The notes: generated by a model not told the origin, from the letters alone. A stretch of 64,000 nucleotides of DNA from an uncultured Pelagibacteraceae bacterium (GCA_902615435.1 CACMOZ010000006.1:1-64000); one strand, 5' to 3'. Counted from the stretch's first letter, positions 3,692-25,070 are shown. A program made the numbers and translations.

Positions 3692-4573
3692 CTGAAAAAG
3701 AAATACAACAAAATCGTTTTGCTAGGGGCATCAGGCTTTCTTGGAAGCTATATCTTTAAAAGACTTTATTTGCAGGAAAAAAATATAATAAGACAAAGTA
3801 GAAAAAAAAGAAAAAATTTTATAAAAATTGATTTATTAAATAAACGAGAAGTTTTTAAAAAACTAAAAAAAATTAATCCTAAAATTATAATAAATACATC
3901 CGGTATGACTGATGTAGAAAAATGCGAAAATAGTTTTCACTTGGCTTTTAAGTCAAATGTAGTTTCAATTCAGAATGTTTGTGAATATGTTAAGACTTAC
4001 AATAAAAATTGTTATTTTATAAATATTTCTACAGATCATTTATATAACGGAAAAGGTCCTCACAAAGAAGAAAATATAAATTTAATTAATAATTACGCAC
4101 TCACAAAGTATTTAGGTGAGGTAATGTCCTCAAAGATAGATTCGATAAATCTTAGAGTAAATTTTTTTGGTAATAACTTTATTAAAAAAACAGGTTTAGT
4201 AAATTGGTTTATAAATGCATGTAAAAGAAAAAAAAAAATATTTTTATACAAAGATATATTATTTTCACCTCTTGAAATAAATTCCCTTACAGAAATAATT
4301 TCAAAAATAATTAATAAAAGGATTAGTGGTACTTATAATTTAGGATCAAATAATGGAATATCTAAAGCAGAATTTCTTAATTTGATTGGTAAAAATTTAA
4401 AACTTAATTTGAAATTTGCAAAGATCACAAGCTCCAGTAATATTAAGAACAGGGCAAAAAGACCTAATGATATGAGACTCAATAATAAGAAGTTTGAAAA
4501 AAAATTTAAGATTAAATTACCAAATATATATCAAGAAATTCAAAAATTTTGTATAAATTATAATAATTACTAA
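3692..4573 (+). CDS. RfbD-like SDR sugar-nucleotide reductase, probable non-ATG start
   Basis: This extended-SDR protein is similar to dTDP-4-dehydrorhamnose reductase: a glycine-rich GASGFLGS nucleotide-binding motif, INTSGMTDVEKCE, a STDHLY serine segment and NYALTKYLGE containing the YxxxK pair. The tracked start at 3719 (TTG) would cut into the first beta strand. Extending to CTG at 3692 restores KKKYNKIVLLGASG; no in-frame ATG or GTG lies between the upstream stop and the motif. It probably reduces a 4-keto sugar nucleotide. The gene ends with its stop overlapping the next ATG. Confidence 0.72.
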   Translation: MKKKYNKIVLLGASGFLGSYIFKRLYLQEKNIIRQSRKKRKNFIKIDLLNKREVFKKLKKINPKIIINTSGMTDVEKCENSFHLAFKSNVVSIQNVCEYVKTYNKNCYFINISTDHLYNGKGPHKEENINLINNYALTKYLGEVMSSKIDSINLRVNFFGNNFIKKTGLVNWFINACKRKKKIFLYKDILFSPLEINSLTEIISKIINKRISGTYNLGSNNGISKAEFLNLIGKNLKLNLKFAKITSSSNIKNRAKRPNDMRLNNKKFEKKFKIKLPNIYQEIQKFCINYNNY

Positions 4574-5640
4574 TGATAACATTTAAGATTAATAAAAAAA
4601 GAATTGGAGAAAACTATCCGACATATTTTATTGCTGATATAGCAGCAAATCATGACGGGTCATTAACGAGAGCAAAAAAACTTATAAAGCTCTCTGCTTT
4701 AGCGGGCGCCGATGCAGTCAAATTTCAACATTTTAAAGCTGAGACAATTGTTAGTGATTATGGCTTTAAAAAATTGGGTAAATTTTCTCACCAAAAAAAG
4801 TGGAAAAAGTCAGTTTTTGAGATTTATAAAGCTGCGAGTATAAATAATAAATGGAATTCAGAGTTATATAAAACTTGTAAAAAATACAAAATAGACTTTT
4901 TAACTGCACCCTATGATCTTGAATATATAGATCAAGTTTCAAAATTTATATGTGCCTATAAAATAGGATCTGGAGATATAACATGGCATGAGGCAGTGAA
5001 AAAAATCTCAAAAAAAAGAAAACCAGTTATATTAGCATCGGGTGCATCTAATATTGAAGATGTAAAAAAAGCAATCTCCTTAATATATAAGTACAATAAA
5101 AAAATTGTTTTAATGCAATGCAATACCAACTACACAGCAAGTGAAGAAAATTATAAATTTATTAATTTGAATGCCTTAAACACTTTTAAAAAGATATTTA
5201 AAAATAAAATAGTTTTAGGTCTAAGCGATCATACTTTTGGAAGTGAAACTGTTTTGGGCGCAATATCTTTAGGTGCTAGAGTTGTTGAAAAACACTTTAC
5301 AGATGACAACAATAGAAATGGTCCTGACCACAAATTTTCAATGAACCCAAATACTTGGAGGGAAATGATTGATTCATCAAGAAGATTAGAAAAATCTTTT
5401 GGAAATGGAAAAAAAATAGTTGAAAAAAATGAGATGGATACTGTAATAATTCAAAGAAGATCTTTAAGAGCATCAAAAAAAATCGCTAAAAATACAGTTT
5501 TGAAACATAAACACATAATAGCGTTAAGACCGTGCCCAAAAAATGCAATTTCTCCTGATCAGATTGAAAAAGTTTTAGGAAAAAAAACTCTTAAAAATAT
5601 AAATTTTCATGAACATTTTACATGGAAAAAAATAAGATAA
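4573..5640 (+). CDS. NeuB-family nonulosonic acid synthase
   Basis: The 355-residue protein has the NeuB TIM-barrel motifs near the N-terminus (IADIAANHDGSLTRAK, GADAVKFQ), the YKIGSGDI and SDHTFG segments, VEKHFT, and a C-terminal SAF domain (QRRSLRASKKIAKN). NeuB-type enzymes condense phosphoenolpyruvate with a six-carbon N-acylated sugar to give a nine-carbon sialic, legionaminic or pseudaminic-type acid. It differs considerably from the second NeuB at 12861, so the two probably use different sugars. Which acid is made cannot be told from sequence. Confidence 0.85.
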   Translation: MITFKINKKRIGENYPTYFIADIAANHDGSLTRAKKLIKLSALAGADAVKFQHFKAETIVSDYGFKKLGKFSHQKKWKKSVFEIYKAASINNKWNSELYKTCKKYKIDFLTAPYDLEYIDQVSKFICAYKIGSGDITWHEAVKKISKKRKPVILASGASNIEDVKKAISLIYKYNKKIVLMQCNTNYTASEENYKFINLNALNTFKKIFKNKIVLGLSDHTFGSETVLGAISLGARVVEKHFTDDNNRNGPDHKFSMNPNTWREMIDSSRRLEKSFGNGKKIVEKNEMDTVIIQRRSLRASKKIAKNTVLKHKHIIALRPCPKNAISPDQIEKVLGKKTLKNINFHEHFTWKKIR

Positions 5641-6263
5641 TAATTATACCAACTTTTAATGAACTTAGATCTATTAAAAGAGTCATTAGAGATTGCCCAA
5701 ATAGTTGGAACATATTAGTAGTAGATGATGCAAGCAGTGACGGTACTAATTTATGGTTAAGAAAAAAAAAAATTTCTTTTTTATTAAATAAAAAAAATCA
5801 AGGTTATGAAAGATCTTTAATTAGAGGTTTTAAGCAAGTTATTAAAAATAAAAAAATAAGATATTTAGCAACTATGGACGCAGATGGAGAACATAATCCA
5901 AAATACTTAAAAAAAATGATAAACCATATATCAAAAAAAAATTTAGATATGGTAATTTCTGAGAGAAATAGCTACAACAGATTGAGCGAGGCTTTAGTGG
6001 GAAAAATATTTAAATTAAAGTATGGTATAAAAGATCCTTTATCTGGATATAAAGTTTATAAAGTTTCTGCACTTAAAAAAATTATAAAAAATATTAAAAC
6101 AAATTCTTTTTTAGTAGATATAATTTGTAAATTTAACTCTTTGTCAAAAAAATTAGGAGTGATAAATTCTCAAAGTAGACAGAGAATTTTTGGCCGTCCT
6201 AAAGTAGGTTTTAATCTTTTCGTCAATATAAAGATTATTCTTTTACTAAGATTAATATTTTAA
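5622..6263 (+). CDS. Glycosyltransferase family 2, DPM1-like
   Basis: The 213-residue GT-A protein has IIIPTFNELRSIKRV at the N-terminus, VVDDASSDGT near residues 33-42 and the metal-binding TMDADGEH near 85-92. This matches the short dolichyl-phosphate-mannose-synthase-like branch of GT2, which transfers a sugar from a nucleotide carrier to a polyprenyl phosphate. No C-terminal membrane domain is present apart from a short hydrophobic tail (IKIILLLRLIF). It overlaps the NeuB gene by 19 bp in another frame. Donor and acceptor are unknown. Confidence 0.8.
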   Translation: MEKNKIIIIPTFNELRSIKRVIRDCPNSWNILVVDDASSDGTNLWLRKKKISFLLNKKNQGYERSLIRGFKQVIKNKKIRYLATMDADGEHNPKYLKKMINHISKKNLDMVISERNSYNRLSEALVGKIFKLKYGIKDPLSGYKVYKVSALKKIIKNIKTNSFLVDIICKFNSLSKKLGVINSQSRQRIFGRPKVGFNLFVNIKIILLLRLIF

Positions 6264-6279
6264 AATTAAAAAAAACTAT

Positions 6280-7284
6280 ATGTTTGATAAAAAAACTATA
6301 TTTATTACCGGGGGCACGGGCTCTTTTGGAAAAGCATTTACCAGAAAAATTTTAGAAGATTTCAACCCACTAAGAATTGTTATATTCAGCCGAGACGAGT
6401 TCAAACAACATTTGATGATGAAAGACCCATTTTTTAGCAAGCACCAAGATAAGATAAGGTATTTGATAGGAGATGTAAGGGATAAAGAAAGATTAAAATT
6501 AGCTTTTCAAATGGAAATAGACATCTTAATTCATGCTGCAGCTTTAAAACAAGTAGAGACATCTGAGTACAACCCTTTTGAAACTGTAAAAACAAATGTT
6601 TTAGGAGCTCAAAATTTAATTGAATTAGCAATACAAAAAAAAATTAAAAAAATAATTGCTCTAAGTACTGACAAAGCTGCATCTCCAACAAACTTATACG
6701 GAGCAACAAAATTGGTTTCAGATAAATTATTTGTAAATGCAAATAATTATGGCTCTATTTCAAAATTTGCAGTTGTTAGATATGGTAATGTATTCAATAG
6801 CAGAGGATCTGTGGTTGAAGTTTTTAGATCAATGAAGGAAAAAAACATTTTCAAAGTTACAGATAAAAAAATGACCAGATTCAACATTACTTTGGACCAG
6901 AGCATTGAGTTCGTCATAAAGTCCCTAAAAAATATGTTTGGAGGTGAAATATTTGTTCCAAAAATACCATCTTATAAATTAACTGATCTAGTGAAGGCAA
7001 TTTCAAACAATGGAAAAATTAAAATTGTAGGAATAAGGCCTGGAGAAAAACTTCATGAAGAAATGGTAACCTCTTCTGACTCCCTTAATTGCTATGAACT
7101 AAATGACCAATTCATCATATTGCCCTTATCTTTTAAATTTTTAAAATGGAACATTAAAAATTTTTTAAATAAATACAAAACCTCAAAACCAAAAAAATGT
7201 AGAGAAGGCTTCTCTTACAATAGTGTAGAAAATAAAAATTTCCTTAGAATAAAAGAAATTCAAAAATTACTTAAAAAATACTAA
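6280..7284 (+). CDS. pseB: UDP-GlcNAc 4,6-dehydratase, PseB/FlaA1-like
   Basis: The 334-residue SDR has TGGTGSFGKAFTRKIL at the N-terminus, FSRDEFKQ, a VRDKERL stretch, HAAALKQV and STDKAASPTNLYGATK, all characteristic of PseB/CapD-type dehydratases. PseB converts UDP-GlcNAc to the UDP-4-keto-6-deoxy-L-arabino sugar that starts pseudaminic acid; close relatives start other dideoxy-amino sugars. PseC, PseG and PseH are not recognisable nearby, so a pseudaminate end product is unproven. The cytidylyltransferase that follows could serve the same route. Confidence 0.8.
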   Translation: MFDKKTIFITGGTGSFGKAFTRKILEDFNPLRIVIFSRDEFKQHLMMKDPFFSKHQDKIRYLIGDVRDKERLKLAFQMEIDILIHAAALKQVETSEYNPFETVKTNVLGAQNLIELAIQKKIKKIIALSTDKAASPTNLYGATKLVSDKLFVNANNYGSISKFAVVRYGNVFNSRGSVVEVFRSMKEKNIFKVTDKKMTRFNITLDQSIEFVIKSLKNMFGGEIFVPKIPSYKLTDLVKAISNNGKIKIVGIRPGEKLHEEMVTSSDSLNCYELNDQFIILPLSFKFLKWNIKNFLNKYKTSKPKKCREGFSYNSVENKNFLRIKEIQKLLKKY

Positions 7285-7302
7285 TCAAAAAATTATATTC
7301 TA

Positions 7303-7965
7303 ATGATCAGCAAAAATGATATAGGAATTTTTTCTATTGCAAGACTTTCAAGCAAAAGACTAAAAAAAAAAATGATTAGAAAATTTTCTAATACAACTTT
7401 AACTGATATAATTTTATCTAAACTATCTAAACTTGGTAACAATGCATTTTTTGCAGGGCATGAGAACATCTTTAAAAAAAAAAGCATTAAACATAAAGTT
7501 AGATTTGTACAAAGAAGCAAGTTATCTTCTATTTCCAATAATTCTTACGCACAAATATTCTCTTTTTTAAAAAAAGAAAAATTTAATTATTTACTTTTAA
7601 TTAATCCATGCATGCCTAACCTTAGAATATCTACTATAAAAAAATTTATTAAAAAAGTTCAAAAACTGAATGGCCCTGCTTTTACAGTTTTTGAAGAAAA
7701 AAATTATTTTTTAAACAAAAAAAATATTCCGCTTAATTTCAAAAAATTAAAAAAAAATGAAACATTAGATACTAAAAAAGTAAAATCGATAAAATCATTT
7801 GCTCATGTTTTTTATTTTTTTGAAAAAAAATATTTTTTAAAGAATGGGCACTATTGGAATTGGAGTAAGCTAAATTACGTTGAACTACAAAAAACGAACG
7901 AATTTTTAGATATAGATAATCTTAAAGATTTTAAAGAAGCTGAATTAGTTTGGAAAAAATTCTAA
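7303..7965 (+). CDS. Diverged CMP-sugar cytidylyltransferase (NeuA/SpsF-like)
   Basis: The 220-residue protein opens with IFSIARLSSKRLKKK, resembling the nucleotide-binding ARxxSxRL loop of NeuA/SpsF enzymes, continues with YLLLINPCMPNLR in the place of the usual LLQPTSPLR and ends with FLDIDNLKDFKEAE, similar to the DIDxxxDFxxAE ending of CMP-sialate synthetases. The overall match is weak and the sequence is lysine-rich, so activity is less certain than for the two other cytidylyltransferases. It lies between PseB and a glycosyltransferase, consistent with activating a nonulosonic acid. Confidence 0.62.
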   Translation: MISKNDIGIFSIARLSSKRLKKKMIRKFSNTTLTDIILSKLSKLGNNAFFAGHENIFKKKSIKHKVRFVQRSKLSSISNNSYAQIFSFLKKEKFNYLLLINPCMPNLRISTIKKFIKKVQKLNGPAFTVFEEKNYFLNKKNIPLNFKKLKKNETLDTKKVKSIKSFAHVFYFFEKKYFLKNGHYWNWSKLNYVELQKTNEFLDIDNLKDFKEAELVWKKF

Positions 7966-10958: not shown

Positions 10959-11954
10959 ATGAAAAAAATTTTAGTTACTGGATCTGAAGGGTTTATAGGA
11001 TCACACTTAGTTGAAACATTATTGAAAAAAAAATACAAAGTAAAAGCCTTAGTTCAATATAATTCATTTAATTCTATCGGATGGATTAATGACTTAATTA
11101 ATAAGGATAGTAAAAACTTGCAGATTTTTTTTGGCGATATAAGAGATATGTCTTTTATAGATAAAATTATGCAAGATTGTGATGCTGTTTTTAATTTAGC
11201 AGCGTTGATTGGTATTCCTTACTCATATCATGCACCAACTTCTTATTTTGAAACCAATGTTAAAGGGACTTTAAATATATTAGAAGCAGCAAAAAAAAAT
11301 AAAATTAAAAAAGTAATTATTACATCAACTAGTGAGGTTTATGGGACAGGACAGTATTTGCCAATTGATGAAAAACATCCTTTAGTAGGTCAATCACCAT
11401 ATTCGGCTTCAAAAATTTCAGCAGATCAATTAGCAATGTCTTATTATTATTCGTTTGATCTACCAGTTACAATTATACGACCTTTTAATACTTATGGGCC
11501 CAGACAGTCATTAAGAGCAATAATACCTACGATTATACAACAAATGTTAATAAACAAAAAAAGAGAGATAAATTTAGGCAATGTAAAAACTACACGAGAT
11601 TTTAGTTACGTGTCCGATACCGTCGATGGCTTTGTTAAATCTATAAATTCAAAATCTGATGGTGAAATTATTAATCTTGGTTCAGGTTTCGAAATTAGTA
11701 TTGAAGAACTTGTAAGAGAGATCGGACACATATTAGGAGAAAAAGTAATCATAAAAAAAGATAAAAAAAGATTTAGACCAAAAAATAGCGAGGTAGAACG
11801 ATTAAAATCTTCTAATATAAAAGCTAAAAAAATATTAAACTGGAGTCCTAAATTTACTGGAAAAAAAGGTTTAAGAGAGGGAATCAAAAAAACATTAACT
11901 TGGTTTTTAAAAAATAAACAATTTTTACCTAAAAAAAACTCTTATAATATTTAA
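10959..11954 (+). CDS. legB: NAD-dependent 4,6-dehydratase LegB
   Basis: The 331-residue extended SDR matches LegB closely as I remember it: GSEGFIGSHLVETLL at the N-terminus, the diagnostic YNSFNSIGWINDL, NLAALIGIPYSYHAPTSYF, TSTSEVYGT, SPYSASKISADQLA and RPFNTYGPRQS. LegB makes the 4-keto-6-deoxy intermediate from GDP- or UDP-GlcNAc in legionaminic acid synthesis. It opens a run of legionaminate-type genes (LegI, LegG, PtmE-like, LegF) that follow without gaps; LegC lies further downstream at 23907. Confidence 0.85.
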   Translation: MKKILVTGSEGFIGSHLVETLLKKKYKVKALVQYNSFNSIGWINDLINKDSKNLQIFFGDIRDMSFIDKIMQDCDAVFNLAALIGIPYSYHAPTSYFETNVKGTLNILEAAKKNKIKKVIITSTSEVYGTGQYLPIDEKHPLVGQSPYSASKISADQLAMSYYYSFDLPVTIIRPFNTYGPRQSLRAIIPTIIQQMLINKKREINLGNVKTTRDFSYVSDTVDGFVKSINSKSDGEIINLGSGFEISIEELVREIGHILGEKVIIKKDKKRFRPKNSEVERLKSSNIKAKKILNWSPKFTGKKGLREGIKKTLTWFLKNKQFLPKKNSYNI

Positions 11955-11958
11955 TTAA

Positions 11959-12864
11959 GTGAAGTCCCAAAAAAATTTTTTTTTAAGCATTGGTTATTTT
12001 GCAGATGGTAATTGGGCTTATCAAAATTTAATAAAAATATTTAATGATAAGTCAATTAATATAAAGTTTATTTGTTTAAGAAAAAAACCTGATAAAAAAA
12101 TTAAAATTTTATCAAAAAAAAAAAATATACCGTGCTTCAAATTTGAGAATGTAAATGACGGAAATTCAATAGAAAAAATTAAAAGTTACAAATGTGATTA
12201 TCTTATCTCAATGTCATACGATCAAATTTTTGGAAAAAAAATATTATATTTAATGAAAAATAAGATTATTAATTGTCATGCTGGCTTATTACCATTTTAT
12301 AGGGGAAGAAATATTTTAAATTGGGCTTTAGTCAATGGAGAAAAATACTTTGGTGTAACAACACATTTAATTAACGATAAGATTGATGAAGGTAATATAA
12401 TTAAACAAATAAGAATCAAAATTAATAAATTTGACACTTATGAAACTTTATTAAAAAAAGCAGAAATAAACTGCTCAAATTTACTTTATTCGACTATAAA
12501 AATAATTCAGAAAGGAAAATTTTCTACATTTTCTCAAAAAAAAATTTGTCGAAAAGGGTCATATTTTAGAAAAAGAAATTCAGAAGATGAAAAAATAATT
12601 TGGTCAAAAAGTGCTAAAGAAATTTATAATTTGATAAGAGGAATATCTTATCCTGGACCAAACAGTAAAACAATTATAAATAAAAGAGTACTTAGAATAA
12701 AAAAATCAAAAATCATTAAATTCAAAAATACAAAAAAATTTAAAGTTGGAGAAATTATTAAAAAAACAAAAAATCACTTTATAGTTAACACTGGTTCTGG
12801 AAAAATAAAAATATTAGATTGGTCTCCAAAATTGAAATTAAAAACAGGTCAAGTTTTTTTATGA
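11959..12864 (+). CDS. Sugar N-formyltransferase (formyl_transf_N domain), GTG start
   Basis: The 301-residue protein shares the N10-formyl-tetrahydrofolate fold with methionyl-tRNA formyltransferase and ArnA: IINCHAGLLPFYRGRN holds the catalytic Asn and His, and GVTTHLINDKIDEGNI supplies the conserved Asp. A C-terminal FMT-like segment follows. Sugar formyltransferases act on amino sugars such as Qui4N or Fuc4N. Sitting between LegB and LegI, where an N-acyltransferase (LegH) would be expected, it may formylate the 4-amino group before chain extension. The GTG at 11959 follows the legB stop by 4 bp. A run of 12 As lies at 12114-12125. Confidence 0.8.
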   Translation: MKSQKNFFLSIGYFADGNWAYQNLIKIFNDKSINIKFICLRKKPDKKIKILSKKKNIPCFKFENVNDGNSIEKIKSYKCDYLISMSYDQIFGKKILYLMKNKIINCHAGLLPFYRGRNILNWALVNGEKYFGVTTHLINDKIDEGNIIKQIRIKINKFDTYETLLKKAEINCSNLLYSTIKIIQKGKFSTFSQKKICRKGSYFRKRNSEDEKIIWSKSAKEIYNLIRGISYPGPNSKTIINKRVLRIKKSKIIKFKNTKKFKVGEIIKKTKNHFIVNTGSGKIKILDWSPKLKLKTGQVFL

Positions 12865-13859
12865 AAACAATCATCATAGCTGAGGCAGGCGTTAATCATA
12901 ATGGAAATTTTAGAAATGCTAAAAAATTAATTTTAGAGGCTAAAAAAAGTGGAGCTGATATTGTAAAATTTCAAAAATTTAAAGCTGAAAAATTAGTAAC
13001 AAAAAAAGCTAAATTAGCTAATTATCAAAGAAAAAATTACAAAAATATTTCACAATATCAAATGCTTAAGAAGCTTGAACTAAAAGACTCTGACTATAAA
13101 AAACTTTATCAATATTCAAAAAAAATAAAAATTAAGTTTCTCTGCTCATGTTTTGACAAAGAATCGCTTGCTTTTCTTCAGTTTTACAAAAATGATTTTA
13201 TTAAAATTCCATCAGGCGAAATAAATAATTTTCCACTTTTAAAGTATGCAGGGAATTTAAAAAATAAAGTCATATTATCCTCTGGTATGTCAACAATTGA
13301 TGAAATAACTTTAGCAATTAATACAATTATAAAATCTGGGACCCCAAAAAAAAATATATATTTATTGCACTGTAATTCTGATTATCCGACAAATATTAAG
13401 GATGTAAATTTAAGAGCATTTGATCAATTAAAAGAAAAGTTTGGTTTAAAACTAGGTTATTCTGATCACACAACAAGTCAAGAAGTTCCAATAATTGCGG
13501 TAGCTATGGGAGCTAAAATTATAGAAAAACATTTTACATTAAACAAAAACTTGAAAGGTCCAGATCATGCGGCAAGCTTCAATCCAAGAGAATTTAAAAC
13601 CCTAGTTGAGAATATCCGAAAAACAGAAATCATTTTAGGAAAAAATAAAAAAATAGTTACTGCTAGCGAAAAGAGAAATAAATTATCAGTGCGTAAATCT
13701 ATAGTTGCTAAAAGAGCTATAAAGAAGGGGGATAAGTTCAGTACTAATAATATTACCATAAAAAGACCAGGCAACGGTATTTCCCCGTTAAAATTTTTTA
13801 AAATAATTGGTAAAAAGTCTAAATATTCATTTAAACAAGACGATCTAATTAAAGTATGA
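12861..13859 (+). CDS. legI: Legionaminic/N-acetylneuraminic acid synthase family protein (NeuB/LegI)
   Basis: The track start at 12819 lies inside the formyltransferase; ATG at 12861 gives MKTIIIAEAGVNHNG, the canonical NeuB start, and overlaps the previous stop by 4 bp. The 332-residue enzyme has DIVKFQKFKAE, IKIPSGEINNFP, ILSSGMSTIDE, LLHCNSDYPT, LGYSDHT and KHFTLNKNLKGPDH, then a SAF domain (VRKSIVAKRAI). It condenses phosphoenolpyruvate with a 2,4-diamino-type or N-acetylated hexose. The adjacent LegG and LegF favour a legionaminic-type product over sialic acid. Confidence 0.87.
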   Translation: MKTIIIAEAGVNHNGNFRNAKKLILEAKKSGADIVKFQKFKAEKLVTKKAKLANYQRKNYKNISQYQMLKKLELKDSDYKKLYQYSKKIKIKFLCSCFDKESLAFLQFYKNDFIKIPSGEINNFPLLKYAGNLKNKVILSSGMSTIDEITLAINTIIKSGTPKKNIYLLHCNSDYPTNIKDVNLRAFDQLKEKFGLKLGYSDHTTSQEVPIIAVAMGAKIIEKHFTLNKNLKGPDHAASFNPREFKTLVENIRKTEIILGKNKKIVTASEKRNKLSVRKSIVAKRAIKKGDKFSTNNITIKRPGNGISPLKFFKIIGKKSKYSFKQDDLIKV

Positions 13860-14995
13860 AAAAAATTGCAATAGTAACTAGTACTAGAGCAGATTATTCA
13901 ATCTTAAAAAATTTAATCTCGCATCTTAGAGAAAATAAAAAAATGAATTTGAAGTTAATAATCAGTGGAACCCATTTAAACAAAAAATATGGATATACAA
14001 TTAAAGAAATAGATAATCTAAATGCTATAAATCATAAAAAAATTGACATTAATATAAAAACCTCATCAGAGGAAAATATCTCAAAAAGTTTTAGTTTAGG
14101 TGTAAAAAAATTTTCAAGTTATCTAAAAAAAAACAAAACTGATCTTGTCATCTTACTAGGTGATAGATATGAAATATTAGCTTTTGCAATATCTTGTTTA
14201 ATTTCAAGAATTCCTATTGCCCACATTCATGGAGGTGAAATAACACAAAGTGTAATTGACGATTCAATTAGACACTCAATTACAAAAATGTCTCAAATTC
14301 ACTTTGTAGCAAATAAAATTTACAAAAAAAGAGTAGCTCAACTTGGAGAAGAAGACTCACGTATATTTATAGTTGGAGGTCTTGGTGCTTATAATTTGTC
14401 TATAGAGAAATTTCAATCTAAAAAGAAAATTTTAAAAAAAATAGGTTTACCATATTTAAAAAAGTATATTTTAATTTGCTTCCACCCCGAAACATTAAAT
14501 AAAAATTCAAATTTAAAAAATTTTAAAAAAATTTTGAATGCTCTTAAGTCTTTTAAAGACCAATTTTTTTTATTTACAATGCCTAATTCTGACCAAGAAA
14601 GTGATTATATTTATCAAGAAATTAAAAAATTTATTTCGAATTCTCCAAATTCAAAATTAATTAAATCTCTTGGAAATAAATATTACAGTTTTCTAAAACA
14701 CTCAGAATTAATTATAGGTAATTCTTCGAGCGGAGTTCTTGAAGCTCCATCCGCTAAAGTACCTTCGTTAAATATTGGCAATAGGCAAACCGGTAGAGTA
14801 ATGGCTAATTCTGTTCTCAATTGTGATTTTAATGAAAAAAACATAAAGAAAAAAATTAGCTATCTATTAAAAATGAAAAAAAAATTCTCCTACAAAAACC
14901 CTTATTATAATGGAAAAACACCATTAAAGATTGTAAAAATTTTAGAAAATTTAAATTTTAATAATTTAATCAATAAAAAGTTTAGGGACATCTGA
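13856..14995 (+). CDS. legG: UDP/GDP-N-acetylglucosamine 2-epimerase, hydrolysing (NeuC/LegG)
   Basis: The 379-residue GT-B-fold hydrolase has VTSTRADYSILKNL at the N-terminus, LLGDRYEILAFA, HIHGGEITQSVIDDSIRHSITK and ELIIGNSSSGVLEAPS, all typical of hydrolysing 2-epimerases. It removes the nucleotide while inverting C2, giving the six-carbon substrate of the NeuB-type synthase encoded just upstream. Its ATG overlaps the legI stop by 4 bp. Sequence alone does not separate NeuC from LegG; LegB and the PtmE-like gene tip it to LegG. Confidence 0.85.
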   Translation: MKKIAIVTSTRADYSILKNLISHLRENKKMNLKLIISGTHLNKKYGYTIKEIDNLNAINHKKIDINIKTSSEENISKSFSLGVKKFSSYLKKNKTDLVILLGDRYEILAFAISCLISRIPIAHIHGGEITQSVIDDSIRHSITKMSQIHFVANKIYKKRVAQLGEEDSRIFIVGGLGAYNLSIEKFQSKKKILKKIGLPYLKKYILICFHPETLNKNSNLKNFKKILNALKSFKDQFFLFTMPNSDQESDYIYQEIKKFISNSPNSKLIKSLGNKYYSFLKHSELIIGNSSSGVLEAPSAKVPSLNIGNRQTGRVMANSVLNCDFNEKNIKKKISYLLKMKKKFSYKNPYYNGKTPLKIVKILENLNFNNLINKKFRDI

Positions 14996-14997
14996 CC

Positions 14998-16053
14998 ATG
15001 AAAAATCCATTAATTTCATCCAATATTTCAATATCTCAATCAATGAAAAAACTCAGTGAAACTGGACAAAGATGTTTAGTAATAGTTGATATTAAGAAGA
15101 AATTGTTAGGAACCCTTACTGATGGGGATATAAGAAGAAACATTTTATCTGGATATGAATTATCTGATAGTATTAAAAAAATTTATAATAAAAAACCAAT
15201 TTACTTCTTCGAAAAAAATTTTTCTGTTGAAAATGCTAAAAAAATTTTTATTAGTAAGAATATAAATCTAATTCCTATTATCAATTCTCAGAGGAAAGTA
15301 GTTAATTGCCTTACCTGGGATGATGTATTCGAAAAACCCTCCAAAAAAAGTATTATGCCTACTTTAAGCACCGTTATTATGGCAGGCGGGAAGGGCATAA
15401 GAATGAAACCTTTCACAGATGTTCTTCCAAAACCTTTAGTACCAATTAATAATAAACCAATCATAGAACATATAATAGAAAATTTTCTTAACTTTAATCA
15501 AAATAAGTTTTTTTTAACAATTAGTCAAAAAAGCAAAATTTTAAAATATTATTTTAAAGATAAAAATACGAAAAGTTACAAAATTAATTTTGTTACAGAA
15601 AAAAAACCTTTAGGGACAATTGGAGGTTTAAAACTGCTTGAACAGAAACTTACAAGTAATTTCTTTTTAGCTAATTGCGATATTTTGGTTGATGCAAACT
15701 ATCAAGATATCTTTGAACTTCATAAATCTAGGAATAATGATGTAACAATTGTAGCCTCTATAAAAGAGTTTAATATTCCTTATGGAGTATGTGAAATTGG
15801 AAAAAAAGGTTTACTTAAAAATATTAAAGAAAAACCTAATTTTCAATATCTAGTAAATACAGGTTTGTATTTGGTTAATAAGAAAATAATTAATTTGATA
15901 CCAAAAAACAAATACTTTGATTTTACAGATTTGATTAATGTACTTCTAAAAAAGAAGAAAAAAATTGGGGTTTTTCCAATCGCCGATCAAAAATGGATAG
16001 ATGTTGGTCAATGGGACATTTTTGAAAAAAATTTAAAAAAAATTAAAAATTAA
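14998..16053 (+). CDS. ptmE: CBS-domain nucleotidyltransferase, PtmE-like (GlcN-1-P guanylyltransferase type)
   Basis: The 351-residue protein joins two N-terminal CBS motifs (about residues 5-115, including GTLTDGDIRRNIL) to a nucleotidyltransferase domain starting near 121 with VIMAGGKGIRMKPFTDVLPKPL. The same architecture occurs in Campylobacter PtmE, which makes GDP-glucosamine for legionaminic acid. The partners PtmF and PtmA are not seen in the window, so the feeding route is incomplete. Placed 2 bp after legG and abutting legF. The exact nucleotide used is inferred. Confidence 0.78.
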   Translation: MKNPLISSNISISQSMKKLSETGQRCLVIVDIKKKLLGTLTDGDIRRNILSGYELSDSIKKIYNKKPIYFFEKNFSVENAKKIFISKNINLIPIINSQRKVVNCLTWDDVFEKPSKKSIMPTLSTVIMAGGKGIRMKPFTDVLPKPLVPINNKPIIEHIIENFLNFNQNKFFLTISQKSKILKYYFKDKNTKSYKINFVTEKKPLGTIGGLKLLEQKLTSNFFLANCDILVDANYQDIFELHKSRNNDVTIVASIKEFNIPYGVCEIGKKGLLKNIKEKPNFQYLVNTGLYLVNKKIINLIPKNKYFDFTDLINVLLKKKKKIGVFPIADQKWIDVGQWDIFEKNLKKIKN

Positions 16054-16754
16054 TGTACCGTGGTAAAAAAATAGTAGCATTAATTCCAGCAAGAGCCGGA
16101 TCGAAAGGGTTAAAAAATAAAAATATAAAAATTTTTAAAAAAAAACCACTTATATACTGGACAATTAAAGCAGCGCAAACTTCCAAATATATTGATGATA
16201 TTATTGTAACTACTGACTCTGAAAAAATATTAAATTTATCTAAAAAATTTAAAATTAAAAATTTAATCAAAAGGCCAAAAAAATTAGCTTTAGATAATAC
16301 TGCAATCAAAGAAGTAATTTTTCACAGTTTTAAATGGATAAAAAAAAAACTAACAAATAATTATGAGTATTTTATTTTGTTGCAACCTACCTCTCCATTA
16401 AGAAACAAAGACCATATTAACAAATTTGTAAGAACTTTTTTTTCAAAAAAAACAAAAAATAGTGAAACCATGATTTCCGTTGCTGCTGCTCCGGTAAAAG
16501 CTAGTTGGTTAATGAGAAAGAGAGGAAAATATTTAAATTTTCTTAAAAAAAATAAGAAAAATTATTTAAGACAAGATTTAGAAAAATTTTATTTACCAAA
16601 CGGAGCTATCTATTTTTCAAAAATTACAACCTTCAAAGGATCTTTTTATGGTAATAAAACAATGTTTTATGAAATGGATATCAAGAGCTCAATTGATATT
16701 GACAATTTACATGATTTTAAAAAAGGTGTAAAAATAAAAAATATTTTGGAGTAA
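16053..16754 (+). CDS. legF: CMP-nonulosonate cytidylyltransferase (NeuA/LegF)
   Basis: The 233-residue enzyme has the complete CMP-sialate synthetase start LIPARAGSKGLKNKN (about residues 9-23), IIVTTDSEKI, LLQPTSPLRNKDHI and a DIDNLHDFK end. It couples the nine-carbon acid to CMP, the activated form used by transferases. As the last enzyme after LegI, LegG and PtmE it is the best candidate for CMP-legionaminate formation. It shares a single base with the preceding stop. Confidence 0.87.
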   Translation: MYRGKKIVALIPARAGSKGLKNKNIKIFKKKPLIYWTIKAAQTSKYIDDIIVTTDSEKILNLSKKFKIKNLIKRPKKLALDNTAIKEVIFHSFKWIKKKLTNNYEYFILLQPTSPLRNKDHINKFVRTFFSKKTKNSETMISVAAAPVKASWLMRKRGKYLNFLKKNKKNYLRQDLEKFYLPNGAIYFSKITTFKGSFYGNKTMFYEMDIKSSIDIDNLHDFKKGVKIKNILE

Positions 16755-16934: not shown

Positions 16935-17948
16935 TTGAAAAATAACTTAATAGATAAACTTCATAAAAAACTTAATAGTGTAACTTTTAAAAGCCTCTCA
17001 AAGGAAGTTTACACCAATGCTAAATATAATTTTAAATTTATAGATTTTGGTAAGTCTCTAAAGGATTTATTAAAAGTTAATAAAGAAAATAAAAATGCTA
17101 TAATAGTTGGTGGCGGCCCAAGTTTAAGAAAAATTAATCAAATTAAAGTATTAAAAACGTATAAAAAAAAATTTATTATAATTGCTTGTGATGGAGCATT
17201 GTATTATCTTTTAAGTAACAACATAATTCCAGATTTAGTTGTTACTTTTGATCCTCATCCCACAAGAATTATTCGATGGTTTGGCAACACTAATTTAAAA
17301 AAAAAAGATTTAAAAAAAGATGATTATTTTTCAAGGCAAGATATTGAAAAAAAATTTAATAATGAAATTGAATCTAATAAGAAAATAATTTCTTTATTCA
17401 ACAAAAATGCTAGAAAATTAAAAATAGCTTTGTGCACTTCATCTTCTAAATTAGTAGTAAGAAGATTGATTGAGTCTAAAACAAATATTTATTGGTGGAA
17501 TGCTTTTTTAGATGATCCTAATAAAAAGAATAGTCTCACAAAAAAAATATTTAAATTAAACAAATTGCCAATAGTGAACACTGGTGGAAATGTGGGTTCC
17601 GCTGCCTGGATGATGGCTGAAAATGTCTTTAATTGTAAAAATATTGCACTTTTGGGTATGGATTTTGGATACTATAAAGAGACACCTATCCGTGCTACAC
17701 AATATTACGATGTATTACTTAAAATTTGTAAAGATAAATCAAAAATCAGAAACTTTTATTCAACGATATATAATAAAAAACTTAAAAAAAAATTTTACTC
17801 TGATTATGTCTATATGTGGTACAAAAAATGTTTAGTTGAAATGATAAATAATTCAAAAAGTAACACTTATAATTGTACTATGGGCGGTATATTGCTTGAT
17901 AAAAAAATAAAATGGTCTACGTTGGAACAGTTTTGTAAAAAGAATTAA
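16935..17948 (+). CDS. DUF115 / Maf-like protein, TTG start
   Basis: The 337-residue protein has the DUF115 core: IIVGGGPSLRKIN near residues 56-68, IIACDGALYYLL, IIPDLVVTFDPHP, and later NTGGNVGSAAWMMAENVF and IALLGMDFGY. DUF115 proteins include Maf flagellin nonulosonic acid transferases and MptE-like pterin kinases. Adjacent to LegF, transfer of an activated nonulosonic acid is the better guess. The gene starts with TTG at 16935; no ATG is available before the conserved region. It ends directly against the radical SAM gene. Confidence 0.72.
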   Translation: MKNNLIDKLHKKLNSVTFKSLSKEVYTNAKYNFKFIDFGKSLKDLLKVNKENKNAIIVGGGPSLRKINQIKVLKTYKKKFIIIACDGALYYLLSNNIIPDLVVTFDPHPTRIIRWFGNTNLKKKDLKKDDYFSRQDIEKKFNNEIESNKKIISLFNKNARKLKIALCTSSSKLVVRRLIESKTNIYWWNAFLDDPNKKNSLTKKIFKLNKLPIVNTGGNVGSAAWMMAENVFNCKNIALLGMDFGYYKETPIRATQYYDVLLKICKDKSKIRNFYSTIYNKKLKKKFYSDYVYMWYKKCLVEMINNSKSNTYNCTMGGILLDKKIKWSTLEQFCKKN

Positions 17949-19562: not shown

Positions 19563-21350
19563 ATGTATTTTTTAGATAAAAGATCTAAAAATGAAGAACT
19601 TTTGATTTGTAAAAGTTTTTTATTATCGAGAAAAATAACTGAAAAATACGCAAAAAATTTTAATAAGAGTAAATTTTATTCATTTCTCACAAAAAATTTT
19701 TCAAACAAACTTGTTATATCTTATTTTAAGAAAAAATTTTTTTATGAGAACATTAATGTTTTTAATCAAATTATAATAAATGAACATGATAAAAAATATA
19801 ATCGTAAAATAGTTTATAATAGCTCAGAACAAAAAAAGATTTTAAAAACTTTAAACAATAATTTACTTAGTAAGTATAAAATAGATACAATTAATCAAAA
19901 TAAAAATATCAAAAAATTTTTTTTTGGGTTAAAGCCATCATATTATAAATTTTTAAAACTAATTAATTTCAAAAAAAGAAAAATAAATTTTAAAAGACCA
20001 AAAATAGCTATTTCTTTAGTTGAGGGCTTAGACCCACGTTTTAAATCAGATGTATTTTGGGATCCTCAGATTAAAAATAAAAAAGATATTTTAATCTATA
20101 TAGAATCACCATATTTACTAAGAAAATTTAAACAACATATTCCATATATTGAAAAATTAAAAAAAAAAGATGTTGTTATTATTAATCTCTGGGAAGAAGA
20201 GTCTTATAAAAATAACTTTGAAGATCTTTTACAGAAATTAAAAAATATAAAAACCAAAACCTTTTTTGATTATCACCTAAAAAATATTTCAATAGAACTT
20301 ATTGAAAGAGTAAATTTTTGGATAAATTTTTTTAATAAGTACCATGTAAAAATTCATATAGACTCTGACGATCTGAAATTTGATAATATCGCCAAACAAA
20401 TAGCATTAGAACAAGTTGATGGATGTTCAGTAGGTAAAATTAAATCTTATATCACACATAGTTGCCCATTATTTTTTGAGTACTATCATAATGATATTTT
20501 TTTTTGTTGGGGAAAAAGATTAGTGAAAAATATAAAAAAAATGAAAAAGAATGGGATGATGACTAATATTAAAAATCTTGTTATCAGTGGCAATCTTAAT
20601 CAAATAGTTAATGAAGAAATCATAGAAAAAATTTCAAAAATTAAAAGAAATTTTAAGCGATGTGGAGTTACAAAAAAAATTTTAATTTTAGATACTTCAC
20701 ATGATGATAATAAAAATCATAATGAACAATTGATGATGACAAAAAAGGTTAATTACTTTTATAGTAAGATTGTTGATTTTGCCTTAAATAATAAAAAGAT
20801 AGGTCTAATTATAAAACCAAAAAAAAGTCTCGAGTATTTAGACAACGATACAAAGAAAAAGATGCATAGCTTAATTAAAATGAAACAAATCTATGTTGAG
20901 AACAATTTTAAAGTTCCAGTAAAAAACTTTGCTAAAATAAGTGATTTTTCAATATCACTTACTGTAGATAGTTTACCATCGGCAATGTTAGAAGCTTTAT
21001 GTGAAAATAAGAAGCTTAGATGTATCTTTTACGACTATCCAAGATGTTCTAAAAAAGAAAAAATTTTTAGCTGGGGAAACAAAAAAGTTTTTTTTAACAA
21101 TTTAGATGAAATGATAGAAACAGTAGAAAAAGAGATATTTATACCGAGATCAAAAATTGGTATTTTGCCTAAAACTTTTGTGAGTTCTTTAAACCCTTTT
21201 AAACCAATTTTAATTAATGATAAAGCTAAGTTCTACATACAAAATTTGTTGAAACAATTTAAAAAACTCAAGAAAAAAGATAAATCTATTAAAAAAGTAA
21301 ATCATTTGTTTAAAAAAAAATATGGAAACAATTTTATTGTAAAAATCTAA
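19563..21350 (+). CDS. Large hypothetical protein, possible GT-B-type surface carbohydrate protein
   Basis: I do not recognise this 595-residue protein as a named family. The N-terminal 150 residues are lysine/asparagine-rich. The middle has PKIAISLVEGLDPRF and ILIYIESPYLL, and the C-terminal third resembles GT-B or CDP-glycerol-transferase-like folds (IGLIIKPKKSLEYL, ISDFSISLTVDSLPSAMLEAL), where a Ser-rich loop precedes a helix that binds sugar nucleotide. No signal peptide or transmembrane helix is seen. Located between a radical SAM protein and the amidotransferase, it is probably a transferase, but that is inference. Confidence 0.5.
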   Translation: MYFLDKRSKNEELLICKSFLLSRKITEKYAKNFNKSKFYSFLTKNFSNKLVISYFKKKFFYENINVFNQIIINEHDKKYNRKIVYNSSEQKKILKTLNNNLLSKYKIDTINQNKNIKKFFFGLKPSYYKFLKLINFKKRKINFKRPKIAISLVEGLDPRFKSDVFWDPQIKNKKDILIYIESPYLLRKFKQHIPYIEKLKKKDVVIINLWEEESYKNNFEDLLQKLKNIKTKTFFDYHLKNISIELIERVNFWINFFNKYHVKIHIDSDDLKFDNIAKQIALEQVDGCSVGKIKSYITHSCPLFFEYYHNDIFFCWGKRLVKNIKKMKKNGMMTNIKNLVISGNLNQIVNEEIIEKISKIKRNFKRCGVTKKILILDTSHDDNKNHNEQLMMTKKVNYFYSKIVDFALNNKKIGLIIKPKKSLEYLDNDTKKKMHSLIKMKQIYVENNFKVPVKNFAKISDFSISLTVDSLPSAMLEALCENKKLRCIFYDYPRCSKKEKIFSWGNKKVFFNNLDEMIETVEKEIFIPRSKIGILPKTFVSSLNPFKPILINDKAKFYIQNLLKQFKKLKKKDKSIKKVNHLFKKKYGNNFIVKI

Positions 21351-22537
21351 TGAATTTTGAAAAAAAAAATTTAATCAAACTTTATAATTTACCTAAAGAA
21401 ATAAAATTTTGTAAAAATTGCACTATCTCAAATCAAAGACCGAGAATAACTTTTGATAAAAACGGGATTTGTTCTGCATGCAATTTTAGTAAAATTAAAA
21501 AAAAAATTAACTGGGAAGAAAGAAAATTGAAATTTAAAAAACTTTTAGATAGATTTAGAAAAAAGGATGGAAATTTTGACGTTTTAGTGCCATGCAGCGG
21601 AGGTAAAGATGGCAGTATGGTCGCTCACAAACTAAAGTATGAGTATGGTATGAATCCCTTGTGCGTTACTTGGGCTCCACTCAAATATACTGAAATTGGG
21701 AAAAAAAACTTGGATAATTTCATTAATAGTGGATTCGATCATATACTAGGAACTCCCAATCCAACCGTAACAAGAAAATTAACAGAGGCATCATTTAAAG
21801 AAGTTGGAGATCCTTTTCAGCCGTTTATTTATGGCCAAGTTAATTTTCCACTCAATATGGCAGTAAAATACAATATTCCTCTGATAATGTATGGTGAAAA
21901 CCAAGAGGCTGAGTATGGAGGAGATACAACCAAAGCAGAAAAGCCTACAAGAGATGTAGAAGATTTTGCCAAATATTATTTTTCAGGAAAACAGCTAGAC
22001 TCGTGGAAAAAATATGGAATTTCAAATAACGACTTAAAGTTTTTTTCTGGTCCTGAGATCGAAAGTATAAAATCCTCCAAAATTGAAATTCATTTTTTTG
22101 GTTTTTATCATTTTTGGGATCCACAAGAAAATTACTACTATTGTCAAAAAAATACTGGTCTTTCACCAAACGAAGAAAGAACTGAAGGAACTTATTCTAA
22201 ATATGCAAGTTTAGATGATAAGCTTGACGGTTTTCACTTTTACTTGGCTTATATAAAATTTGGAATTGGAAGAGCGACATCTGATAGCGCTCATGAAATA
22301 AGAGATAACAAAATAGATAGAGACGAAGGCATCAGTCTTGTAAAAAAATATGATCATGAATTCCCTAAAAAATACTATAAGGAATTCTTAGAATATTGCT
22401 CTATTACATCCGAAGAATTCGATAAAATCATAGACAGTTGGAGATCAGACCATCTTTGGAGAAAAGGAAATGACGATAAGTGGGTATTAAAGAATCCTAT
22501 TTGGATAAACAATGAGAAAAGTTCGAATAATTCCTAG
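21350..22537 (+). CDS. wbpG: N-acetyl sugar amidotransferase (WbpG/PseA-like)
   Basis: The 395-residue PP-loop ATPase has an N-terminal zinc-type Cys set (CKNCTISNQRP, GICSACNF), an ATP pyrophosphatase loop PCSGGKDGSM near residues 80-90 and the family hallmark YGENQEAEYGG. WbpG/PseA enzymes convert an acetamido group to an acetamidino group using ammonia. The next two genes encode the HisF2/HisH2 ammonia-supplying pair, reproducing the known WbpG-HisH2-HisF2 trio. The target here is probably a nonulosonic acid or its precursor. Confidence 0.87.
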   Translation: MNFEKKNLIKLYNLPKEIKFCKNCTISNQRPRITFDKNGICSACNFSKIKKKINWEERKLKFKKLLDRFRKKDGNFDVLVPCSGGKDGSMVAHKLKYEYGMNPLCVTWAPLKYTEIGKKNLDNFINSGFDHILGTPNPTVTRKLTEASFKEVGDPFQPFIYGQVNFPLNMAVKYNIPLIMYGENQEAEYGGDTTKAEKPTRDVEDFAKYYFSGKQLDSWKKYGISNNDLKFFSGPEIESIKSSKIEIHFFGFYHFWDPQENYYYCQKNTGLSPNEERTEGTYSKYASLDDKLDGFHFYLAYIKFGIGRATSDSAHEIRDNKIDRDEGISLVKKYDHEFPKKYYKEFLEYCSITSEEFDKIIDSWRSDHLWRKGNDDKWVLKNPIWINNEKSSNNS

Positions 22538-23282
22538 ATTAGATATTAAAGGTCCAAATTTAATAAAATCCGTCCAATTTGAAGGGCTTAGAGTTTTAGG
22601 GTCACCAAATGATTTTGCAAAAAGGTATTACGATGAAGGCGCGGATGAATTACTATATATGGATGTGGTTGCCAGCCTTTATGGTAGAAACAGTTTAAAC
22701 GACTTAATATCCAAAGCAGCTAAAAATGTATTTATTCCAATTACTGTAGGAGGGGGAATAAGAACAGTTGAAGATGCAATTCAAATTTTCAAATCTGGCG
22801 CTGATAAAGTAGCAATTAATACCGCTGCAGTAAAAAATCCTAATTTAATATCTGACTTAGTACAACGTTTTGGATCTCAAAGTATAGTAGTTTCTATTGA
22901 GGCAAAAAAAATAAAAGATAGATGTTGGAGGGTTTATACAGATTATGGCAGAGAAAAAAGTGAGCTTGATTTATTTAAATGGATAAAGATTTGCGTTGAA
23001 AAAGGAGCTGGTGAAATAATAATTACATCGATTGACAGAGAGGGAACTGGAAAAGGCTTTGAAACCGAAATACTTGAGAGTCTTGGTAATATAGAAATAC
23101 CAATAATATTTTGTGGTGGAATGGGAAAGTTAAATGATATTATTGAAGTCTTAAAGTTTGGTAATGTTGATGCCATATCAATGGCAGACTCAATTCATTA
23201 TGGCAAATTAAATATTTCACAGATAAGAGAATTTGCATTGTCAAAAAATTTAAACTTAAGGAATTTTTCAAATGAAAACTAA
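22512..23282 (+). CDS. hisF2: HisF-like amidotransferase partner (HisF2)
   Basis: The 256-residue (beta/alpha)8 protein aligns with the imidazole glycerol phosphate synthase cyclase: IIPRLDIKG keeps the first catalytic Asp, GGGIRTVEDA and TSIDREGTGKGFETE follow, and FCGGMGKLND replaces the usual ASGGAGK. The position of the second catalytic Asp (VVVAIDAKR in histidine HisF) reads VVSIEAKK, a Glu. Together with its place between WbpG and a HisH-like gene, this supports ammonia channelling for sugar amidination rather than histidine synthesis. It overlaps wbpG by 26 bp. Confidence 0.83.
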   Translation: MRKVRIIPRLDIKGPNLIKSVQFEGLRVLGSPNDFAKRYYDEGADELLYMDVVASLYGRNSLNDLISKAAKNVFIPITVGGGIRTVEDAIQIFKSGADKVAINTAAVKNPNLISDLVQRFGSQSIVVSIEAKKIKDRCWRVYTDYGREKSELDLFKWIKICVEKGAGEIIITSIDREGTGKGFETEILESLGNIEIPIIFCGGMGKLNDIIEVLKFGNVDAISMADSIHYGKLNISQIREFALSKNLNLRNFSNEN

Positions 23283-23910
23283 AACTTTGATAATTGATTA
23301 CGGTATAGGAAACCTTTTAAGTTTAACCAGGGCGTTGGAATATGTAGGTTCCGAAGTAATTATCTCAGATGATCATAGAAAAATCTTTGACGCATCACAT
23401 ATTATATTACCTGGTGTGGGTGCATTCAAAAAAGCTGTAGAGGTGTTGAAAGAAAAAAAATTAGACGAGATAATTCAAAAAACTTTAGAAAAAAAAAGAA
23501 ATTTTTTAGGAATTTGTCTAGGAATGCAAATTTTGTTAAAAAAAAGTTACGAACATGGAGAAACCAAAGGGCTTGGAATTTTTGATGGTGAAGTGAAATC
23601 TATAAAAACTTTCAAAAATCCAATTGATATAAAAATTCCAAATATTGGCTGGTACAATTTGATTCCCGAATATGAAAAGAAGGAATTTAATATTTTTAAA
23701 AATTTAAATGATAAAGACAATTTTTATTTTGTTCATTCTTTTCTCACAGATATTAAAAATAGTAATGAAAAAAATTTTTCAATTCAATATTCTAATATAA
23801 AAATACCAGCAATAATTTCTAAAAATAATATATTTGGTTTTCAATTTCATCCTGAAAAAAGTGGAAAAGCAGGATTAAAACTTTTAAAAAACTTTACTAA
23901 TTTGGAGTGA
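23272..23910 (+). CDS. hisH2: HisH-like glutamine amidotransferase (HisH2)
   Basis: The 212-residue class I glutaminase carries the nucleophile Cys82 in GICLGMQ, an N-terminal YGIGNLLSL, a PGVGAF oxyanion-type motif and the His-Glu pair in FQFHPEKSG. It would hydrolyse glutamine and pass ammonia through the HisF-like partner to WbpG. The start overlaps hisF2 by 11 bp and the end overlaps legC. No other histidine gene is in the window, consistent with a sugar role. Confidence 0.85.
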   Translation: MKTKTLIIDYGIGNLLSLTRALEYVGSEVIISDDHRKIFDASHIILPGVGAFKKAVEVLKEKKLDEIIQKTLEKKRNFLGICLGMQILLKKSYEHGETKGLGIFDGEVKSIKTFKNPIDIKIPNIGWYNLIPEYEKKEFNIFKNLNDKDNFYFVHSFLTDIKNSNEKNFSIQYSNIKIPAIISKNNIFGFQFHPEKSGKAGLKLLKNFTNLE

Positions 23911-25070
23911 AAAATACTTTGATAATAAAAAAAATACAAAAGTTGTTTTCTAAAAATCACAGACCAATATTTCTTCATGAGCCTGATATTGATGCAAAAG
24001 ATATTGAAAATGTCTCTTTAGCACTAAAACAAAAAAAAATTTCTTCACATGCTAGTATTACTCTCGATTTTGAAAAAAAATTGAAAAGATTTACAAAATC
24101 AAAGTATGTTGTTTCTACAATGAATGGAACATCTGCTCTTCATCTAGCTTTGCTATCGTTAAAAGTAAAATCGAATGAAGAAATTTTAATGCCGTCTTTA
24201 AATTATATAGCAAGTGCAAATGTATGTTTATATATTAATGCAGTTCCACATTTTATTGAAACAAAAAAAAATAATTTAAATATTGATACCGAGTCTTTAG
24301 AAAAATACTTAAATCTAATCACAAAACAAAAAAATAAGAAATGTTATAATCTTAAGACAAAAAGATACATAAGAGCAATTATAGTCCCACATCTTTTTGG
24401 GCATATATACGAAATTGAAAAAATAAAAAAAATTTCAAAAAAATTTAATTTACTTTTCATAGAGGATGCTGCAGAAGCATTAGGTAGTTTTTATAAAAAA
24501 AAGCACGCAGGAACTTTTGGAGATATCGGAATATTAAGTTTTAATGGAAATAAAATTATCAGTTCTGGATCAGGTGGAGCAGTTATAACAAACAATAAGA
24601 AGTTTGCTTTAAAAGCTTTGAAACTTTCTACAATCGCGAAAAAAAAACATTCATGGAAATATGAGTATGATGAAGTAGGTTTTAATTATAGGTTACCAAG
24701 TATAAACGCAGCACTAGGAATTTCTCAACTTAAAAAGATAAACAATTTTATTAAGTTAAAGCGAGATTTATTTAAAAAATATAAAAGTTTTTTTAAAAAG
24801 GAAAATATTTTTGAATTATTAGCAGAGCCAAAAAATTGCAGAAGTAATTATTGGTTACAAACAATTATAATGAAGAATAATAACAAAATTAGTGACAAAA
24901 TATTTAAAAGTTTGTTTTTACTTAAAATATTTGTGAGACCAATATGGAGACCTTTACATTTATCAAATCATTTAAAGAGATTTCCAAAGATGAAATTAAA
25001 AAACACAGAAAATATTGCAAAAAGAATAATTAATCTTCCGAGTAGTTCCTTTTTAATTAAAAAAAAATAA
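23907..25070 (+). CDS. legC: LegC family PLP aminotransferase, GTG start
   Basis: The 387-residue DegT/DnrJ/EryC1 aminotransferase shows LegC-type signatures: FLHEPDIDAKDIENV, ISSHASITLDFE, STMNGTSALHLAL, IEDAAEALGS, FNGNKIISSGSGGA with PLP Lys216, and KKKHSWKYEYDEVGFNYRLPS. It would aminate C4 of the LegB product before acylation and LegG action. The gene starts at a GTG overlapping the hisH2 stop and lies 12 kb from legB, separated by the amidotransferase module. No frameshift is seen. Confidence 0.83.
   Translation: MKNTLIIKKIQKLFSKNHRPIFLHEPDIDAKDIENVSLALKQKKISSHASITLDFEKKLKRFTKSKYVVSTMNGTSALHLALLSLKVKSNEEILMPSLNYIASANVCLYINAVPHFIETKKNNLNIDTESLEKYLNLITKQKNKKCYNLKTKRYIRAIIVPHLFGHIYEIEKIKKISKKFNLLFIEDAAEALGSFYKKKHAGTFGDIGILSFNGNKIISSGSGGAVITNNKKFALKALKLSTIAKKKHSWKYEYDEVGFNYRLPSINAALGISQLKKINNFIKLKRDLFKKYKSFFKKENIFELLAEPKNCRSNYWLQTIIMKNNNKISDKIFKSLFLLKIFVRPIWRPLHLSNHLKRFPKMKLKNTENIAKRIINLPSSSFLIKKK

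Follow-up and report, generated by a model that had tools for sequence, protein, structure and literature searches.

A sugar formyltransferase probably takes the LegH step in a legionaminic acid-type gene cluster of an uncultured Pelagibacteraceae bacterium

A stretch of 64,000 nucleotides from an uncultured Pelagibacteraceae bacterium (GCA_902615435.1, CACMOZ010000006.1:1-64000; hereafter the window) carries a complete set of biosynthesis genes for an acid of the legionaminic (Leg) type, related to sialic acid; in this set, a gene for a sugar formyltransferase (FMT) occupies the position of the acetyltransferase gene legH. It is quite probable that this FMT substitutes for LegH, formylating the amine at C4 of the sugar intermediate, with N7 as the probable site in the resulting acid and 7-N-formyl legionaminic acid as the product. 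The strongest evidence for the FMT doing the job of LegH is the exchange of the two genes in the same slot of Leg clusters from other microbes.

As a control for this exchange, Leg clusters were sampled via LegC, blind to the FMT (20 clusters, with G360 and G331 of the same sample added). Sixteen control clusters contained both LegC and LegI: 12 had only a LegH of the PglD type, two had only an FMT of the window's family, two had neither and none had both. The gene order LegB-LegC-LegG-LegI-LegH-PtmE of cluster L140 differed by a single swap from LegB-LegC-LegG-LegI-FMT-PtmE of the SAR86 cluster L069. In the same way, the order LegB-LegC-LegH-LegI of cluster L139 corresponded to LegB-LegC-FMT-LegI in many loci.

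In the window, the genes for LegB, the FMT, LegI, LegG, a PtmE-like protein and LegF are contiguous at 10959-16754 and LegC begins at 23907, as the first-pass annotation of this DNA had described. All open frames were in place with the expected family matches, and the sugar formyltransferase reported there between LegB and LegI was recovered with its Formyl_trans_N (PF00551) and Formyl_trans_C (PF02911) domains. Gene identities were assigned from profile matches scored in bits against the NCBI equivalog cut-offs:

10959..11954, plus strand: LegB-type NDP-GlcNAc 4,6-dehydratase (TIGR04180, 456.9 bits, cut-off 475)
11959..12864, plus strand: FMT, predicted sugar N-formyltransferase in the LegH position (GTG start; triad N105-H107-D143; PF00551/PF02911)
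12861..13859, plus strand: LegI, NeuB-family legionaminic acid synthase (TIGR03569, 430.6 bits, cut-off 399.65)
13856..14995, plus strand: LegG, NeuC-family hydrolysing 2-epimerase (TIGR03568, 418.7 bits, cut-off 235.9)
14998..16053, plus strand: PtmE-like sugar-1-phosphate nucleotidyltransferase with CBS domain, candidate for the GDP route (PF00571 and PF00483, NTP_transferase)
16053..16754, plus strand: LegF, CMP-nonulosonate synthetase (PF02348; best NCBIfam model PseF, 133.5 bits, cut-off 205.7)
23907..25070, plus strand: LegC-type aminotransferase (best model TIGR04181, 409.6 bits, cut-off 420; start overlapping the end of the HisH gene)

The dehydratase LegB and the C4 aminotransferase LegC scored narrowly under their cut-offs and far above the PseB and PseC models; for LegC the PseC score was 240.5 bits and this assignment was rejected. 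LegG and LegI exceeded the NeuC and NeuB cut-offs, and LegF was recognised by PF02348 only. The gap between LegB and the FMT is 4 bases, the stop of the FMT and the start of LegI overlap as ATGA (12861-12864), and the LegI/LegG and PtmE/LegF frames overlap too, judging by their coordinates. Because of this tight spacing, the LegB-LegF run is operon-like and not a group of chance neighbours. A mechanical open reading frame call placing the LegI start at 12819 was too early, the real start being the ATG at 12861. The genome searches gave no other aminotransferase of the LegC type; two further full-length DegT aminotransferases, encoded on contig C4 in other sugar contexts, were rejected as a second LegC.

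The FMT has 301 amino acids and matches PF00551 with 84.6 bits. Its residues N105, H107 and D143 were invariant in 81 of 81 aligned homologues and correspond to Asn-His-Asp, the catalytic triad of the formyltransferase superfamily as established for ArnA and Fmt. The AlphaFold model (pLDDT 93.9) had ArnA and Fmt as the closest solved folds (Foldseek TM mostly 0.84-0.89, identity 20-26%), and a quick tree placed the window FMT among the FMTs of Leg clusters, separate from ArnA, Fmt and FMT2, the latter being a second type of formyltransferase. The modelled fold and the triad mark the protein as a predicted folate-dependent sugar N-formyltransferase, for which an NDP-4-amino sugar would be the substrate. 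It shares fold, domain pair and triad with the N-terminal formyltransferase domain of ArnA, at an identity of only about 25%, but lacks the fused dehydrogenase domain and differs in pathway context and tree position. Methionyl-tRNA Fmt was rejected as an identity, as a separate, better-scoring Fmt (128 bits) is encoded on contig C2 and the two stand apart on the tree; the PurU and PurN models scored much weaker. PseJ (PDB 6ci2/6ci4), a formyltransferase of solved structure named for the pseudaminic pathway, matched the FMT family profile at E 3.1e-16. This distant match was not accepted as an identity either: PseJ belongs to the pseudaminic branch and has chains of about 200 amino acids, whereas the window FMT sits with legionaminic-type genes, is longer, contains a Formyl_trans_C domain and has LegC, not PseC, as its partner. 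A search of a plasmid collection with the FMT gave matches only at the level of ArnA or Fmt. A third protein of the formyltransferase fold (L003:1279-2088 on contig C1 of the genome, 269 amino acids) sits on a very long tree branch and is encoded beside a deacetylase-like frame.

Relatives of the FMT, taken as the best 80 of 166 homologues from a scan of GTDB genomes, were spread over more than 10 phyla, among them Bacillota, Bacteroidota, Pseudomonadota, Campylobacterota, Planctomycetota and Verrucomicrobiota, together with a Heimdallarchaeota bin and others. With bit-score thresholds chosen by the analyst, and with several loci ending at a contig edge, the FMT was accompanied by LegI in 69 of the 80 loci, PtmE in 66, LegG in 59, LegC in 57, LegF in 52, LegB in 42 and WbuX in 18. 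The gene directly downstream was LegI in 52/80 and that directly upstream was LegC in 32/80. LegB-LegC-FMT-LegI-LegG-PtmE-LegF was a recurrent order, and across phyla the FMT gene either follows LegI or is flanked by LegC and LegI. In several other loci, a PseB-like dehydratase of about 400 amino acids preceded LegC in place of LegB. The swap of FMT for LegH thus appears widespread in unrelated microbes and little documented, and is no oddity of SAR11. Similar clusters were also detected in two other Pelagibacterales records (L035 and L098); within the window's family the FMT was rare (4/297 genomes at E<=1e-30). In locus L017 of that family, the FMT adjoins LegC and LegI, but LegB is replaced by a divergent short-chain dehydrogenase/reductase (SDR) along with a gene resembling UDP-sugar 6-dehydrogenase, which suggests a different sugar scaffold.

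The first-pass annotation had also seen no LegH-type acetyltransferase, and this held in family searches over the assembly, the basis of all genome-wide absences reported here: PglD_N, PseH and Acetyltransf_3 each gave 0 matches, and no LegH homologue turned up elsewhere in the genome. The NeuD model matched only hexapeptide proteins devoid of a PglD_N domain. From sequence or size these were read as GlmU-C-like, CysE-like, gamma-carbonic-anhydrase-like, LpxA/LpxD-like and DapD-like proteins, and they were rejected as LegH. The absence of LegH is only likely, since the assembly has a completeness of 86.75% and contig C6 starts at base 1 of the window, within a gene that lies upstream of the sugar genes. 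Across phyla, 46 loci carried the FMT together with LegC, LegI, LegG and PtmE; a PglD-type LegH was found in eight of them and none in 38. The FMT clusters of Marinoscillum furvescens, Acetobacterium wieringae and Labilibacter marinus gave no strong match for LegH. Among about a dozen neighbours of unassigned identity in LegH-minus loci judged by eye, a non-exhaustive inspection, no acetyltransferase that could be a GNAT substitute was recognised.

Three genes passed over by the first-pass annotation lie directly upstream of LegC and are chained to it by overlapping frames:

21350..22537, plus strand: WbuX/PseA-type N-acetyl sugar amidotransferase (TIGR03573, 361.8 bits, cut-off 203.2)
22512..23282, plus strand: HisF-type (WbuZ) amidation subunit (WbuZ model 268 bits, cut-off 299.7; histidine model 255 bits)
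23272..23910, plus strand: HisH-type glutamine amidotransferase subunit (TIGR01855, 217.8 bits)

All three components of a WbuX/HisH/HisF acetamidino system are therefore adjacent. Since a full-scoring hisF (354.8 bits) is present on contig C8, the HisF of the window, with 255 bits for the histidine model, was rejected as the histidine enzyme and is most likely an amidation paralogue. The coupling of the three frames to LegC makes it probable that the product of the cluster is amidinated as well. WbuX and HisF were found in 10/80 FMT clusters, and amidation genes are also present in the LegH clusters L140, L149 and L150. According to a title cited in PMC3210612, the polysaccharide of Legionella pneumophila consists of a 5-acetamidino-7-acetamido acid.

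In the proposed pathway, PtmE would make NDP-GlcNAc, possibly in the GDP form by analogy with PtmE of Campylobacter jejuni, LegB would yield the 4-keto-6-deoxy sugar and LegC would place an amino group onto C4. The FMT would formylate this amine from N10-formyl-tetrahydrofolate in place of acetylation by LegH. The sugar would then be released and inverted by LegG, extended by LegI with pyruvate from phosphoenolpyruvate and activated by LegF with CMP. WbuX, HisF and HisH would probably turn one N-acyl group, most likely the N-acetyl at C5, into an amidine, so that the final acid would be 5-acetamidino-7-formamido. In this scheme we infer the substrate, the acyl position, the amidination, the stereochemistry (D-glycero-D-galacto for a legionaminic acid) and the use of the product. 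The proposal in full, that 5-acetamidino-7-formamido legionaminic acid is made through a widespread, unnamed FMT clade taking the LegH step in a marine lineage without known nonulosonic acids, is put forward tentatively, as possible.

Compared with the GDP-route legionaminic pathway of C. jejuni (LegB/C/H/G/I/F and PtmE), the window shares LegB, LegC, LegG, LegI, LegF and the CBS-type PtmE, mostly in one run, and differs in having no detected LegH, an FMT in the LegH slot and amidation genes coupled to LegC. Legionaminic acid with an N-formyl group has been described before, and the replacement of an acetyltransferase by a formyltransferase is a known theme. In Halorubrum sp. PV6, 5-N-formyl-legionaminic acid was measured, and the gene of a predicted formyltransferase, HrrPV6_1050, was transcribed along with Leg genes that include an assigned LegH (PMC6137143). 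There, as in the window, the Leg genes share a region with the gene of a predicted formyltransferase, which is a likeness of genomic context. Geobacillus PSS1 has a formyltransferase gene where other bacteria have the acetyltransferase gene fdtC (PMC5109656). The marine Pseudoalteromonas distincta, as cited in PMC3210612, has a chemically characterised 5-acetamido-7-formamido nonulosonic acid, which shares the 7-formamido group with the predicted product of the window but is of the L-glycero-L-manno (pseudaminic) and not the legionaminic configuration. In the open-access literature searched, no description was found of a Leg cluster with a formyltransferase and no LegH, nothing was found under abbreviations of N-formyl-Leg, and legionaminic acid was not found described in SAR11, in line with the first-pass annotation.

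Several observations weigh against the substitution of LegH by the FMT. A PglD-type (LegH-like) gene is also present in 18/80 FMT clusters, nearly always adjoining the FMT (L024, L051, L061, L099 and 14 other loci), so a strict replacement of LegH in all clusters was rejected; about five further FMT loci gave weak PglD-type matches only. On the FMT tree, presence of the PglD-type gene switches 17 times among 18 carriers, so it is repeatedly gained or lost inside a single FMT clade. In the paired clusters, the PglD-type protein may be a NeuD-like O-acetyltransferase, or the FMT may have a different position or step as its target, and the pairing leaves some doubt about the position at which the FMT acts. 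LegB, LegC and LegF scored under their equivalog cut-offs, LegC lies about 7 kb away from the LegB-LegF run, the tree was built quickly and has weak support in its deep branches and long branches to the outgroups, and no assayed enzyme of the FMT clade was found. The formyl group of Halorubrum, moreover, was assigned to N5 in the presence of an assigned LegH, whereas N7 is predicted and no LegH was found for the window.

A reading along the lines of Halorubrum would place a LegH gene off the contig, which the incomplete assembly and the contig start at base 1 would allow. This LegH would acetylate C4, and the FMT would formylate the C5 nitrogen (the C2 nitrogen of the sugar) to give a 5-N-formyl acid. 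The 18 clusters with both genes are in favour of such an arrangement, but the 38 complete FMT clusters devoid of LegH are not. Furthermore, the N-acetyl group would first have to come off, and clusters potentially able to deacetylate carry a PIG-L deacetylase and a second formyltransferase, both missing from the window. This reading is considered unlikely. A pair of this kind is encoded after LegG in L098:8850-10409 (Pelagibacteraceae AG-457-K11), with a second formyltransferase of about 295 amino acids followed by a PIG-L de-N-acetylase of about 220, and also in L026, L031, L042, L044, L045 and L057; it could swap the C5 acetyl for formyl, giving a di-N-formyl acid.

The formyltransferase fold leaves the substrate unfixed and the window contains further sugar genes, among them a second NeuB, a PseB and SDRs, so the FMT could act on an unrelated amino sugar and lie in the operon by chance. 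Its constant company of LegC and LegI across phyla, the 4-base and ATGA spacing and its equivalence with LegH in the slot make this very improbable. About as improbable is that the formyl group itself is the target of amidation and the finished sugar has a formamidino group instead of formamido plus acetamidino. The frame coupling of WbuX-HisF-HisH to LegC and their recurrence with the FMT could be read in this way, but known members of the amidation system act on N-acetyl groups, as the name of the WbuX model implies, and the presence of these genes in LegH clusters indicates that they are not formyl-specific. Formylation in place of the LegH acetylation is thus preferred. The N-formylated legionaminic analogue proposed by the first-pass annotation gains from the slot context and the missing LegH, and has to be amended in that the amidation genes suggest a product that is not simply N-formylated; a formyltransferase in place of LegH is likely for this genome and fits most complete clusters, but does not hold as a general rule, as both genes occur in some clusters.

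Other sugar genes surround the cluster. Directly after LegF, an MptE-like protein (16935-17948) shows a partial match to the flagellin modification protein PseD; a flagellin did not turn up in the genome, and the protein may attach the acid to a target other than flagella. At 4573-7965 the window encodes a second NeuB that stays under the cut-offs of both the NeuB and the PseI model, a PseB that exceeds its cut-off and a divergent cytidylyltransferase. No PseC-type gene was found in the genome, and the group resembles another set for a nonulosonate or an amino sugar that seems incomplete. Downstream of LegC, the segment 26746-28364 encodes one more SDR and, with a weak PseF match, a third CTP_transf_3 protein.

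Nonulosonic acids are displayed at the cell surface, within reach of phages, grazers and lectins. If the proposed reading is true, the swap of one enzyme, from acetyl to formyl at C7, would change the surface by a single methylene group. Since the swap occurs in more than 10 phyla, many Leg clusters annotated for di-N-acetyl legionaminic acid probably make another product, and the FMT would serve as a sequence marker for predicting the exchange of acetyl for formyl. For SAR11, the cluster offers a testable target for the chemistry of the cell surface.

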